Below are positions 20,004 to 25,679 of a stretch of DNA of 37,148 nt, piece by piece. The stretch comes from an uncultured Clostridia bacterium (lineage in GTDB: Bacteria; Bacillota; Clostridia; Christensenellales; Borkfalkiaceae): contig CATLBN010000019.1 of NCBI GenBank assembly GCA_949878885.1, positions 1-37,148 of the forward strand, in the 5' to 3' direction. A program made the translations under genes and the position numbers. The notes beneath the pieces are model-generated. The model was not told the origin of the DNA. It did no database searches and worked only from the letters and a program-made list of their open reading frames with translations. Each line of letters starts with the position of its first letter. Position 1 is the first letter of the stretch.

Positions 20004-21458
20004 GTGAAAAAAATTTTATGTTTTATACTGGTTATTTGCGCGGCGGCGGCAAGCCTTGCCGTTTCGGCGTGCGCAAAAGACGGCAACAAGTCTATAAGCG
20101 CGTATAACGTTTTTGCCATTTACGACGAAGAAGCGCAAACTTTGACCGGCACGCTGAATTTCGATTATTATAACGGCACGCAAAACGAAATAAAAGATTT
20201 AAAATTTAACCTGTACGGCAACGCTTTCAGAGAAGGCGCTACATATGCTCCGGTATCTAAAACTTACGAAAACAAAGCATATTACGGGGGCAAAAGCTAC
20301 GGAAGTATGGAAATTACAGGCGTTGAAAACTGCGCCGGCTGGACCGTGGCGGGCGAAGACCAAAACGTTTTAACGGTAAATCTTATAGAGCCTATATATC
20401 CCGAACAGCGCGTACAAATTACTATTTCCTACATACTGACGCTTGCCAAGGTAAACCACCGCACGGGAGTTACCAAAACCACGGTTAACTTAGGAAACTT
20501 TTACCCCATTCTCTGTGCCTACTCTGCGGAAGGCTTTGTGGAATGCCCCTATTATTACTGCGGCGACCCGTTTTTATCCGATTGCGCAAATTACAGCGTA
20601 ACGCTTGACATACCCGAAAAGTACACCGCGGCGTCAAGCGGCAAACTTGAAAGCGAAAGCGTAAACGACGGCAGAAAAAAATGTTTGTACACTTTAAAAA
20701 ACGCACGCGACTTTGCGTTTGTTCTTTCAGATAAGTTTGAAGTAATTTCAGAAAACGTAAACGGCGTTACCGTAAACTATTATTACGTAGCGGATACAAA
20801 CGCACAGGTCAGTCTTTCCGCCGCAGTCGAAAGCCTTAAATATTTTTCGGAAACGTTCGGCGATTACATATACCCCACTCTATCCGTAGTTCAAACGGGT
20901 TTTTGCTACGGCGGTATGGAATACCCCGCGCTTACGATGATTGCCGACGGGCTTGATTCCGACAACAATATTTATACCATAGTGCACGAAAACGCACATC
21001 AATGGTGGTACGCTATGGTAGGCAGCGACCAAATTAATAACGCCTGGCAGGACGAAGGACTTGCCGAATACTCCACGCTTATGTTCTTTGAAAAAAATCC
21101 AAGCTACGGATTTACGCGTACCGGCATAGTTAAAACGGCAACCAATTCGTACAGAGCTTTCTTTTCTGTTTACAACCAACTGAACGGTTCCGTAGACACA
21201 TCTATGAACAGAAAACTGTGCGATTATTCAGGCGAGTTCGAATACAACAACGTAACGTACAATAAGGGACTTATTTTGTTTGATACGCTTAGAAATTCTA
21301 TCGGCGACGAAAAGTTTTTAAGCGGACTTAAAAATTATTATAAAAAGAACGTTTGCAAAATTGCTTCCGCCGACGAACTTTACGGCTGCTTTATAAAAAG
21401 CGGTACCGATTTGGAAGGATTTTTTCAGTCGTTTACCGAAGGCAAAATTTTAATTTAA
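20004..21458 (+). CDS. M1 family metallopeptidase, lipoprotein
   Basis: The 484 residues start (GTG, with a GAGGTGG site) with a lipoprotein signal ending in the lipobox AVSAC (Cys23), so it is exported and lipid anchored. An aminopeptidase-N-like beta domain leads to the gluzincin motif HENAH (His328, Glu329, His332), followed 18 residues later by Glu351 in DEGLAEY. The Tyr-rich segments and the GGMEYP motif, the M1 family GAMEN equivalent, support an M1 peptidase. It lacks the long C-terminal helical domain of full aminopeptidase N. The substrate is unknown; peptide scavenging is likely. A terminator follows. Confidence 0.92.
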   Translation: MKKILCFILVICAAAASLAVSACAKDGNKSISAYNVFAIYDEEAQTLTGTLNFDYYNGTQNEIKDLKFNLYGNAFREGATYAPVSKTYENKAYYGGKSYGSMEITGVENCAGWTVAGEDQNVLTVNLIEPIYPEQRVQITISYILTLAKVNHRTGVTKTTVNLGNFYPILCAYSAEGFVECPYYYCGDPFLSDCANYSVTLDIPEKYTAASSGKLESESVNDGRKKCLYTLKNARDFAFVLSDKFEVISENVNGVTVNYYYVADTNAQVSLSAAVESLKYFSETFGDYIYPTLSVVQTGFCYGGMEYPALTMIADGLDSDNNIYTIVHENAHQWWYAMVGSDQINNAWQDEGLAEYSTLMFFEKNPSYGFTRTGIVKTATNSYRAFFSVYNQLNGSVDTSMNRKLCDYSGEFEYNNVTYNKGLILFDTLRNSIGDEKFLSGLKNYYKKNVCKIASADELYGCFIKSGTDLEGFFQSFTEGKILI

Positions 21459-21471
21459 CTTTGTTTTTATT

Positions 21472-21502
21472 AAGGCGCGGGCAAATATGCCCGCGCCTTT
21501 CC
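21472..21502 (+). terminator. Terminator of the M1 peptidase gene
   Basis: AAGGCGCGGGC (21472-21482) pairs with GCCCGCGCCTT (21489-21499) around AAATAT and ends in TTT. The GC-rich stem makes it convincing although the T-tract is short. Confidence 0.8.
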
Positions 21503-21538
21503 GATTTTAATTTATAAAAATAATATTTTAACAAATAC

Positions 21539-21567
21539 TTGCCAAAATATATATAATGGTATATAAT
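21539..21567 (+). promoter_or_regulatory. Promoter of the corA leader
   Basis: TTGCCA (21539-21544), a 17-base spacer and a perfect TATAAT (21562-21567). The transcript would start near 21574 and runs first through a leader ORF and a terminator before corA. Confidence 0.75.
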
Positions 21568-21595
21568 CAAGGCAATAAATTTTTTGGAGCCTGCT

Positions 21596-21640
21596 ATGGA
21601 AGTTCCGGACAGTTGTTGTTTTAATATTAAAATTTATTAA
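21596..21640 (+). CDS. 14-residue leader peptide upstream of corA
   Basis: An ATG at 21596 has a good GGAG site six bases upstream and opens a 14-codon frame encoding MEVPDSCCFNIKIY. Its TAA (21638-21640) overlaps the 5' arm of the antiterminator (21639-21646), the layout of a classical leader peptide. A ribosome finishing the ORF would cover that arm. The early Glu, Pro and Asp codons resemble the ribosome-destabilising composition of Mg2+-sensing leader peptides such as enterobacterial MgtL; the two adjacent Cys codons are an alternative sensor. Function is inference. Confidence 0.6.
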   Translation: MEVPDSCCFNIKIY

Positions 21641-21699
21641 TTCCGTACCAAAGCAAAATAAGTTTGCAGCGCACGGAATTGTATTCCGTGCTTTTTTTT
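21639..21699 (+). promoter_or_regulatory. Terminator/antiterminator switch before corA
   Basis: GCACGGAAT (21671-21679) pairs with ATTCCGTGC (21683-21691) around TGT and is followed by eight T, a textbook intrinsic terminator. Its 5' half, ACGGAATT (21673-21680), can pair instead with AATTCCGT (21639-21646), 33 bases upstream. The two structures exclude each other, so this is an attenuator. No known riboswitch aptamer is seen, and the leader (about 120 nt) is too short for an M-box. With the overlapping leader peptide, translation is the likely input. Confidence 0.7.
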
Positions 21700-21779
21700 G
21701 CCCGCAAACACGCTAAAATAAAGTATTAATGCGTATTTGTTACGGGCTATACCTTAGACAAACTTATGTGAGGCGCTTT

Positions 21780-22790
21780 ATGGTTAAATACTTTTTTGCC
21801 GCAGACGGCGAAAAAATGGAATCGTGTGAAAATTTTAAAAAGAACTGCTGGGTAGATATGATAAACCCCACCGACGGAGAATGCCAAGACGTTGCGCGTT
21901 TTACGGGCGTGCCGGAAGATATGATTAAAGCCGCTTTGGACGAAGAAGAACGCGCGCGTTCGGAATTTGACGAAGGCTGCAGTATGTTTGTATTGGACTG
22001 CCCCATTATAGAAGAAGGCACCGGCGGCGACAGCTATACCACCCTTCCTCTTTCTATTATTTATAATAAAGACTGCATAGTTACCGTTTGTTTAAAGGGC
22101 AACACCGTTTTAAAAGATTTTATTACGGGCAGAGAAAAAGTTACAAGTATAAAACCCGTGCATTTTGCGCTTTCGTTTATGATGGGCAACGCAAAAAGAT
22201 TTTTGTACTGCCTTAAACAGATAGACCGCAAAAACCACCGTATTCAAAACGAAATGGGCAAGACTATGCGTAACGAAGAAATTATACAGCTGCTGGACTT
22301 GCAAAATTCGTTGGTATTCTTTTCCACATCGCTAACGTCAAACGAGCGCGTTCACGAAAAATTTTCAAAAACAGAAGCCGTTACCACAAGGGAAGACTAT
22401 CAGGATTTATACGACGATTTAAGCATAGAAAACAAACAGGCTATAGAAACCTGTAACATTTATAAAAATATTTTAAGCGTAACTATGGACGCGTACGGTT
22501 CGGTAATTTCAAACAACGCCAACAACAATATGAAAACGCTTACCATTATTACCATACTGCTTGCCGTGCCCACTATGATTGCGGGATTTTGGGGTATGAA
22601 TATGCCCGTACCCGGCGAAAACGGCGTTACGTTTGCACAAACAGGTTGGTTTTGGCTGGTTACCGTTGCCGCCGTTGTTCTTACCGCGGGCATTGCCGTT
22701 TTTTTGCTTAAAGGCAATCCGTTTAAAAATTCCATAAAACAAAAAAGAAAAAAAAGACGCGAAAATAAAGACCGCAAAAACAAAAACTGA
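21780..22790 (+). CDS. corA: CorA family divalent-metal (Mg2+) transporter
   Basis: CorA proteins are pentameric channels for Mg2+ and sometimes Co2+ or Ni2+. The 336 residues form a large N-terminal cytoplasmic domain, a long stalk helix and two C-terminal membrane segments. The first of these ends in the selectivity motif GMNMP (Gly272-Met273-Asn274), and the C-terminus is basic. I chose the ATG at 21780 because it has GAGG six bases upstream; a start 51 bases further up lacks a ribosome site. It is preceded by a leader peptide and attenuator and followed 20 bases later by an FmdB-type gene. Confidence 0.94.
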   Translation: MVKYFFAADGEKMESCENFKKNCWVDMINPTDGECQDVARFTGVPEDMIKAALDEEERARSEFDEGCSMFVLDCPIIEEGTGGDSYTTLPLSIIYNKDCIVTVCLKGNTVLKDFITGREKVTSIKPVHFALSFMMGNAKRFLYCLKQIDRKNHRIQNEMGKTMRNEEIIQLLDLQNSLVFFSTSLTSNERVHEKFSKTEAVTTREDYQDLYDDLSIENKQAIETCNIYKNILSVTMDAYGSVISNNANNNMKTLTIITILLAVPTMIAGFWGMNMPVPGENGVTFAQTGWFWLVTVAAVVLTAGIAVFLLKGNPFKNSIKQKRKKRRENKDRKNKN

Positions 22791-22810
22791 ACTATTTTTA
22801 AGAGGATTTT

Positions 22811-23008
22811 ATGCCGATATTGCAGTACGTATGTAAAAATTGCAATAAAAATTTTGAAGAACTTGTAAAAAAACACACCGATGTTGTTTTATGCCCCGTA
22901 TGCGGCAAACCCGCAGAGCGCAGTTTTTGCGGAGAAATGTTTTCGGCTACGGGTAAAACAATAAAAAAATGCAGCGGTAATTGCAAAACCTGCGGAGGCT
23001 GCAAATAA
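22811..23008 (+). CDS. FmdB-type small zinc ribbon protein
   Basis: The 65 residues start MPILQYVCKNCNKNFEELV, the FmdB/CxxC_CxxC_SSSS family start, with zinc pairs CKNC and CPVC. They end in a Cys-rich tail (CSGNCKTCGGC). The function of this family is not established beyond metal binding. It is probably cotranscribed with corA: AGAGG before the ATG, 20 bases from the corA stop, and a shared terminator. Confidence 0.88.
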   Translation: MPILQYVCKNCNKNFEELVKKHTDVVLCPVCGKPAERSFCGEMFSATGKTIKKCSGNCKTCGGCK

Positions 23009-24897: not shown

Positions 24898-24935
24898 GGC
24901 GCGGGCATTATCTGCCCGCGCCTTAATTTATTTTA
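24898..24935. terminator. Shared terminator between the tiny ORF pair and ribU
   Basis: GGCGCGGGCA (24898-24907) and TGCCCGCGCC (24913-24922) form a 10-bp GC-rich stem with AT-rich tails on both sides (TTAATTTATTTTA on the plus side). It probably stops both the tiny ORF transcript and the converging ribU transcript. Confidence 0.75.
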
Positions 24936-25679
24936 TTTGTTTTCCGAACAAACCTGCTGACTTTCGGTTTGTTCTTTTTTATGCTTTTTCGCGCGTTTTG
25001 CCCCCGTAAATTTTTCATTTGTAAATTTAATAAGCCTTGACAGCGGTTTATACAATAAAAGCGCCGCGGCGGATACGCACAGGCATTTTATAAAATTGAA
25101 TAAAAGCGCCCAATACCAAACGTTTACAAACAGCTGCTTACCGCCTTCCCACGTACCGCCGAAAGCCTGTGAAAACGCAGGAAAAGTTAAAAAATAGTTT
25201 ATAGGCATAGAAAAAGCGCACTGTAAAACACAACCTACCGCAACGGTCCACAAAACCGTTTTAATGCCCTTATACTTTTTGTATATAATAGCCGGCAAAA
25301 GCATATAAGGCAAAACCATTAAAATATTTGCAAGTTCGCCTATAAACGCCGTATGCCCAACCGTTATTGCGTGCAGCAATTCCTTTAACACGGCTATTAC
25401 CGTACCTGCGGCAGGACCCAGCGCAAAGCCGCCTATAAGTACGAACACGTTTGAAAAATCAAGTTTTAAAAAATCTACGGGAGATGCGGGCAAAAGCGCA
25501 AAGTCCAATAACCCTATAGCGTAAGATATAGCCGTAAAAATTGCCATATACGCTATACGCGTAGCTGTAAAATAGTTTGCAAAAATCTGTTTTGCCGTTT
25601 TCTTTTCTTTCCCCGCCGAAGTGTTTTCGGCGGCATTTTCCGCAGTTTCCGCGGAAGGCGTTTGCTGAATTACATCCAT
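24933..25679 (-). CDS. ribU: ECF transporter S component, RibU-type riboflavin transporter
   Basis: S components bind the vitamin and work with a shared ECF energising module. The 248 residues have a long polar N-terminus, then about six membrane helices, with the RibU-type segment DFSNVFVLIGGFALGPAAG and PINYFLTFPAF. The C-terminus is a basic, charged tail. The substrate call rests mainly on the FMN riboswitch directly upstream. The energising ECF genes are not in this window. An AAGGAG site lies before the ATG. Confidence 0.9.
   Translation of the reverse strand: MDVIQQTPSAETAENAAENTSAGKEKKTAKQIFANYFTATRIAYMAIFTAISYAIGLLDFALLPASPVDFLKLDFSNVFVLIGGFALGPAAGTVIAVLKELLHAITVGHTAFIGELANILMVLPYMLLPAIIYKKYKGIKTVLWTVAVGCVLQCAFSMPINYFLTFPAFSQAFGGTWEGGKQLFVNVWYWALLFNFIKCLCVSAAALLLYKPLSRLIKFTNEKFTGAKRAKKHKKEQTESQQVCSENK

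Follow-up and report, generated by a model that had tools for sequence, protein, structure and literature searches.

The window analysed here, a stretch of 37,148 nucleotides, belongs to a genome of 1.49 Mb in 33 contigs, which is 96.9% complete. The locus studied lies between a peptidase-M1-like gene (20004–21458), after which a likely terminator can be seen by eye at about 21472–21499, and corA, which codes for a Mg2+ transporter. The features are the following:

21528–21557, + strand: second promoter match found in the sequence, TTAACA-18-TATAAT
21539–21544 (-35) and 21562–21567 (-10), + strand: sigma-70-type promoter TTGCCA-17-TATAAT, 11 of 12 positions matching
21586–21589, + strand: ribosome-binding site of the leader ORF, GGAG, from the sequence
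21596 (ATG) to 21638–21640 (TAA), + strand: leader ORF, 14 codons and stop, MEVPDSCCFNIKIY, from the sequence and the conserved codons of the VPDS group
21639–21646, + strand: antiterminator arm 1, AATTCCGT, from the pairing of own arms in 106 loci
21653–21667, + strand: small hairpin GCAAA-ATAAG-TTTGC inside the antiterminator, from the predicted fold
21673–21680, + strand: shared arm 2, ACGGAATT, whose partner is either arm 1 or the 3' arm of the terminator (21683–21691)
21671–21699, + strand: intrinsic terminator with a 9 bp stem, GCACGGAAT/ATTCCGTGC (21671–21691), a loop of 3 and eight T (21692–21699)
21780–22790, + strand: corA, CorA-family Mg2+ transporter, 336 amino acids (Pfam PF01544, E 1.9e-49)

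The initial annotation had described this region as a leader peptide followed by a terminator/antiterminator switch. Its promoter, ribosome site, 14-codon ORF, both hairpins and run of eight T are all present at the positions it gave, and the stop codon does sit on the antiterminator arm, which it overlaps. We have taken 21780 as the start of corA; a longer version in the ORF listing began at 21729. The corA product scores 92.4 bits with TIGR00383, under the cut-off of 200.75. In the window, 80 nt separate the T-run from corA.

The promoter stretch of the window can be aligned in several loci of the genus. In the same genome, 67 bases of another locus (L002, G000:C15:43023–43089) are 76% identical to the promoter region (21504–21570). 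The window also contains an FMN riboswitch on the reverse strand (RF00050, 25771–25891, 105.7 bits), ahead of a 248 amino acid ORF on the same strand (24933–25679). This ORF looks like a membrane protein, and we take it to be probably a riboflavin transporter component.

An antiterminator and an intrinsic terminator which exclude each other, as in leader-peptide attenuators, are found within the leader. The terminator stem has an energy of -13.3 kcal/mol, against -7.1 for the lone antiterminator helix of 9 pairs. The predicted fold of RNA 21578–21682 is the antiterminator (MFE -20.6), while that of the full leader is the terminator, which remains when 21622–21651 are held unpaired to mimic a ribosome at the stop codon. 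Five terminator-like sites are found in 21400–22900 (shuffle mean 2.0), and 21565–21700 folds moderately better than shuffled sequences (z -2.02, with 8 of 200 shuffles equally good). The window sequence alone does not exclude a chance origin: it is excluded because relatives conserve the arrangement.

Within the genus, corA orthologues (E ≤1e-30) are present in 73 of the 93 genomes, and we have read the upstream regions of all 73. The initial annotation would have been contradicted by relatives which conserve neither the ORF nor the stems and which lack covariation, and it passes this test: a leader ORF, defined by an acidic codon 2 (D or E) and by P or D among residues 3–6, is present in 67 of the 73. 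The peptide starts form several groups: M[DE]VPDS, MDPSS/MDPSN, MDPYYS, MD[AGS]YPS/MDANPS and M[DE]DP. A few leaders have two acidic residues and no early proline (MDTDS, MESDS, MDYDS, MDASDS). No leader ORF was found in six of the 73 orthologues (genomes G007, G023, G062, G063, G068 and G071). In these leaderless loci (L103, L119, L130, L144, L147, L156) a promoter-like stretch can be seen by eye about 45 nt or less from corA; judging from it, the 5' end would be very short.

At the family level, corA (E ≤1e-20) is found in 114 of 313 genomes, the genus included, which belong to 5 of the 17 genera. Forty-six of the genomes with corA lie outside the genus, and 40 of their upstream regions have been taken. 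A leader ORF is present in 39 of these, mostly beginning with MDAAPNNRC, MDAVPDNR, MDAVPNRSS or MDDPNNRC; behind the ORF come a hairpin, which usually resembles GCGCACGG...CCGTGCGC, and a T-run. In the remaining region (G230) the contig ends 126 nt upstream of corA, and a leader and a terminator are found at the end of another contig of this genome. The pattern MDA[AGV]P[ND] matches 37 times in the 313 genomes, and corA lies no more than 300 nt away in 34 cases. The other three are the G230 case and two genomes without a listed corA (G186 and G316).

For the order we chose by hand 40 regions from 39 genomes, in 15 families other than f1, out of 144 genomes with a match beyond the window's family; for the class, 40 further hand-picked regions from 29 families, out of a pool of 115 outside the order. 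By eye, 30 of the 40 order regions have a leader (for example MDADPYS, MDTDPLS, MEDPYGN or MDADPKRT), as do 18 of the 40 class regions, which come from 15 families (MDCDPGGS, MDADPGEK, MDADPLRT, MKSDPCGH and others). None could be seen in 10 order and 22 class regions, and in one order family (f6) a single region out of eight has a leader. Outside the window's family the leaders often begin with M-D-x-D-P, so that D-P at residues 4–5 is frequent there. In one class genome (G854) the leader frame extends 26 nt into corA.

These counts by eye may be compared with those of a fixed motif rule, which was drawn up after the loci had been read. It finds leaders in 59/73 genus, 39/40 family, 23/40 order (ribosome site included) and 15/40 class regions. 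When these regions are shuffled with their dinucleotides preserved, the mean is 0.6–0.9 leaders per set and the maximum 4. With a peptide profile built from the order leaders, 15 of the 40 class regions score over the 1% shuffle threshold, and 11 over all 2000 shuffles; this test is cleaner than the motif rule, though both the order and class sets had already been seen. The 198 control ORFs in the same loci, which include spurious frames and 30 loci preselected for a similar pattern, give 3 leaders by the rule and 4 over the profile threshold. In these loci 33 of 36 corA-like genes have a leader by the rule.

A loose pattern, M-[DE]-x-[DE]-P, was also tried as a leader finder in the DNA of the whole class and rejected: at least 127 of 393 genomes match, and most matches are background. 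Among the matches listed, 30 loci include one which adjoins corA (tblastn) and one which adjoins an MgtE_N gene; a further match (G764:C158) lies, by its coordinates, about 80 nt upstream of corA. Recurrent MEGDPHS matches were discarded, they are found within long reading frames of 390–394 codons, presumably NuoF-like. A pattern search of 13 chosen genomes gave 23 loci, one of which (L361) is a further corA leader. In genome G939, six places (L357, L368, L372, L374, L375, L376) have similar frame starts, MDAEPGS or MDAEPES, and similar upstream bases: they probably belong to a dispersed repeat which has nothing to do with corA.

The leader start appears to be selected as a peptide, as a comparison at the codon level indicates for three of the five leader groups. 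The VPDS group (14 distinct ORFs) has 24, 0 and 189 differences at codon positions 1, 2 and 3 within codons 2–6. Over all pairs, 149 of these are synonymous and 64 non-synonymous, against 17 and 301 from codon 9 onwards. The MDAxPNN group has 358 synonymous to 264 non-synonymous differences in the early codons and 214 to 2193 in the later ones; the YPS/NPS group has 126 to 193 and 20 to 590, respectively. Codon differences give no sign of such selection in the other two groups: the 13 MDPYYS ORFs have no differences at all in codons 2–6, and the DPS group, in which M[DE]P starts are aligned out of register with M[DE]D starts, has 18 to 283 early and 16 to 373 later. The acidic/proline start had been suspected of being the sensor and is in fact the best conserved portion of the peptide, as would be expected of an MgtL-type leader. 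Proline is found within residues 3–6 in 100 of the 106 genus and family leaders, and an acidic residue 2 (D or E) in all 106; the search rule itself demanded the latter, along with P or D among residues 3–6.

Codon choice is also peculiar. Within codons 2–9, proline is coded by CCA in 48/62 cases in the genus and 32/39 in the family, against 2% in the genes of the window and 4–6% in neighbouring genes of its relatives. Serine is coded by AGT in 67/90 and 15/22 cases (7% in genes), and arginine by CGA in 38/38 family and 1/6 genus cases (9% in genes). The bias is absent from codon 10 onwards. In order and class leaders, counted within the leaders alone, AGT is the commonest serine codon (23/32 and 15/19), CGA is the commonest arginine codon of the order (11/18; 3/8 in the class) and CCA is rare (1/27 and 2/20). 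Our reading is that slow decoding at rare codons would favour the drop-off of short peptidyl-tRNAs; an RNA-level constraint may also act on the same bases. Since two of the five groups give no sign of peptide selection and the synonymous codons of proline and serine are constrained, conservation may lie partly at the RNA or codon level. Several class leaders (L285, L286, L292 and L263) have a second similar stretch near their end, GLFAVPFT or SLFAVPIV, which suggests an additional peptide or RNA constraint there.

The arms of the switch can be followed in the relatives, as the initial annotation had recommended, and they match their own partners best. We have compared the stretch between codon 7 and the terminator with the terminator 5' arm in the 106 leaders, using the best ungapped pairing. 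The mean score is 16.6 for the own arm, 11.7 for a shuffled stretch and 14.2 for the terminator arm of another locus. The own pairing exceeds all 2000 permutations in both sets: it scores 15.3 in the genus, where the permutations reach at most 14.4, and 18.8 in the family, where they reach at most 17.8. The swap test treats loci as independent, and kinship inflates both arm and codon statistics. One column of the shared arm in the family pairs with arm 1 as G-C in 16 loci, A-U in 11 and G-U in 3, with 9 unassigned (n=39), counted per locus, although related loci are not independent. The A-U loci include one from another genus (G231), and the terminator 3' arms follow the change (CCGTGCG, CTGTGCG, CTGTACG). 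This count is biased towards pairs because arm 1 was located through its pairing, a fault which the swap test does not share. Arm 1 is near the stop codon in many loci, not in all: in the MDPYYS group it is short and mostly begins 9–18 nt past the stop, and in 12 of the 39 family loci its start precedes the last base of the stop codon by 27–56 nt, beyond the footprint of a terminating ribosome.

An automated caller finds a terminator with a T-run between leader and corA in 61 of the 67 genus loci. Two others (G048 and G037) have an interrupted T-run, as seen by eye, and four (G041, G034, G049 and G085) have a hairpin without a T-run. These four (L132, L133, L140, L141) have MDANPSF leaders and a second hairpin a few bases before the ribosome site of corA. 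In L132 there are 11 paired positions between arm 1 (CCTTTCCGCAT) and ATGCGGAGAGG, and the four loci perhaps represent a translational version of the switch. Hairpins with a T-run have been called for 12 of the 30 order leaders and 3 of the 18 class leaders. The read-out is not uniform, given the genus hairpins without a T-run and the few T-run hairpins in the order and class. Order and class leaders without such a hairpin might act by masking the corA ribosome site or by coupling. The end of the terminator stem lies at a median of 30 nt from the corA start, and at no more than 50 nt in 59 of the 67 genus loci; such short spacing leaves corA little room for a promoter of its own. Together with the ORF counts and the codon excess, this spacing points to a translatable short ORF upstream of corA and probably on the same transcript, as is found in attenuators.

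A leader of this type may not be restricted to corA. The best-scoring control ORF in the profile test (L263, genome G881) codes for a 418 amino acid PRC-MgtE_N-CBS protein; the leader before it, MDGDPANKCRVYF...LFAVPIVLPV, has the ribosome site AAGGAGG and ends 17 nt upstream of the gene. The best NCBIfam model for this protein is mgtE, below its cut-off. In G881 the leader before corA, MDCDPGGSGPKRYFPILIGLFAVPFT..., likewise begins with MDxDP and contains LFAVP. By eye, the end of the L263 leader has a stretch complementary to the downstream ribosome site. It is a single case which looks like a genuine leader. Genes for MgtE N-domain fragments are described as adjoining Nramp-related Mg2+ transporters, many of them under Mg2+ riboswitches, and one riboswitch-free homologue which was tested seemed to transport mainly manganese (excerpt of PMC4072509). 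As with MgtL, the genes downstream of our leaders code for Mg2+ transporters, judging by protein family (CorA and one MgtE_N-CBS protein).

We propose that the corA 5' leader, from about 21574 (a start deduced from the promoter) to 21779, would act as an attenuator which responds to ribosome processivity. When the whole leader is translated, the ribosome would stand on or beside arm 1 during the synthesis of arms 2 and 3; with arm 1 covered, the terminator would form, transcription would end near 21699 and corA would be off. A ribosome failing early, among the codons for an acidic residue 2, a proline and a further acidic or polar residue, often rare ones, would leave arm 1 free to pair with arm 2, the terminator would not form and corA would be transcribed. 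Low Mg2+ is the most likely signal, it weakens ribosomes on acidic/proline nascent chains, and a Mg2+ importer would thus be made when Mg2+ is scarce. The architecture itself, a leader ORF and alternative hairpins before corA, is in our opinion nearly certain from the sequences compared. These also support a translated and selected leader start, the alternative arms and their placement on the corA transcript. We infer drop-off rather than stalling, Mg2+ as the signal and the sign of the response, and the mechanism as a whole is probably correct.

The leader may be compared with several known systems. The gene controlled by MgtL, mgtA, codes for a P-type ATPase. In trp-type attenuators a leader ORF is combined with a terminator and an antiterminator, and the position of the ribosome determines the choice; the corA leader differs in that it has no run of codons for a single amino acid and the peptide start itself is conserved. 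The remaining comparisons are based on excerpts of the papers cited. MgtL of Escherichia coli and Salmonella also precedes the gene of a Mg2+ transporter as a short uORF, it has acidic and proline codons at residues 2–5 (the destabilising motif EPDP, with Glu2 and Asp4), and it follows the logic which we propose here: full translation turns the gene off and early loss of the ribosome turns it on (PMC11282234). MgtL termination is Rho-dependent (PMC11282234), unlike the case described here, with an intrinsic terminator, corA and a Clostridia host. We therefore call our leader MgtL-like in its logic and not a member of that class, since an intrinsic terminator with eight T would take the place of the Rho-dependent read-out. 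CorL, again in E. coli and Salmonella, is a uORF before corA whose translation is inverse to corA expression, and Mg2+ influences the expression of enterobacterial corA; CorL differs in being Rho-dependent, with a three-way junction and a peptide reportedly poorer in acidic and proline residues (PMC11552253). With less certainty, CorL may share the same logic of full translation and early loss. In Salmonella, mgtQ precedes mgtB, its Asp2 and Glu5 are both required and set the output, and destabilisation favours expression of the transporter; it differs in acting on mgtB translation within the operon (PMC8092293). The corA RNA motif is reported from Gammaproteobacteria only (PMC6429828). Among the matches listed in a literature search of open-licence full texts, with few subscription papers and no preprints, no such corA leader outside enterobacteria appears in the text available.

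The M-box (ykoK) acts on corA, mgtE or mgtA, in most cases by way of an intrinsic terminator (excerpt of PMC4072509). It is an aptamer RNA, unlike the corA leader, which has no M-box match. The genome had been thought to lack this element: indeed, the Rfam model RF00380 finds none in the window or in the rest of its genome, and only 5 of the 93 genus genomes have one. The gene behind one of these (L168) best matches models of Mg2+-translocating P-type ATPases, with scores below the cut-offs because the edge of the locus cuts the gene. Two other M-box loci (L169 and L171) resemble it by eye, and in L170 the first ORF found is different.

The main rival to drop-off under low Mg2+ keeps the same switch with another input: slow or stalled elongation at Asp-Pro or Pro and at rare codons, and not Mg2+ itself, with EF-P, ABC-F proteins or the charged tRNAs for proline, serine (AGT) and arginine (CGA) as possible inputs. 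A ribosome paused at codons 4–8 would likewise leave arm 1 free, nearly all leaders have the early proline, and the rare-codon bias in codons 2–9 is strong; in B. subtilis, EF-P and YfmR resolve stalling at Asp-Pro (excerpt of PMC11381351). We nevertheless consider this rival unlikely: the downstream genes, corA and the one MgtE_N gene, are linked to Mg2+ by their families, and the 6 leaders without proline in residues 3–6 keep two acidic residues (MDTDS, MESDS, MDYDS). A sensor for a single tRNA would also be ill-suited, since the motif stands in varying residue contexts (VPDS, PSS, PYYS, NPS, APNN).

A metal-binding RNA (a riboswitch, an M-box or a new one), with an incidental ORF, would agree with the alternative hairpins and the Mg2+ transporter downstream. 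We find this very improbable: three leader groups conserve the ORF start at the codon level, with a variable stretch behind it, and the read-outs differ among families while the peptide start persists. A known riboswitch in the leader was rejected as a candidate, no Rfam family reaches its gathering threshold in the region and the 17 weak hits (E up to 5) are all far under their cut-offs. Still less credit can be given to a separate small gene or sRNA which ends at a terminator of its own and is unrelated to corA, the latter having its own promoter. Promoter, ORF and terminator do form a complete unit, and in the window there are 80 nt between the T-run and corA, but in the families sampled across the class corA has such leaders in front of it, nearly all family-type pattern matches lie close to corA and the spacing is short in most genus loci. 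The weakest case is that of a trp-type attenuator for cysteine or another amino acid, suggested by the two Cys codons (7–8) of the window leader: cysteine is found anywhere in the peptide in just 67 of the 106 leaders and its positions are not fixed, the leaders share no single-codon run, and we know of no link between corA and cysteine, so this second input can hardly be maintained.

Drop-off under low Mg2+ may be part of a wider picture, for and against which the chances seem to us evenly balanced. In Clostridia, ribosome processivity would be an old and widespread Mg2+ sensor, based on a leader of the MDxDP type or a form derived from it, with interchangeable outputs, which controls corA and at least one gene of the MgtE_N type. 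The rare codons would lengthen the risky step, and the outputs would be an intrinsic terminator in some lineages and perhaps masking of the ribosome site or close coupling in others. Conservation would fall on the peptide and the codons which encode it, rather than on any RNA fold, and the leader would have the role which the M-box plays elsewhere. The likeness to MgtL would then be either very old or a striking convergence.

The bias for CCA, AGT and CGA at the leader start leads to a testable claim, that decoding speed belongs to the sensor, and the six leaderless corA loci of the genus are natural contrasts. If our interpretation is correct, dozens of natural variants in peptide, codons and read-out would be available to study the causes of ribosome drop-off. 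Mg2+ sensing through ribosome failure would not be confined to enterobacteria, and it would be a common form of CorA control in Gram-positive gut anaerobes.
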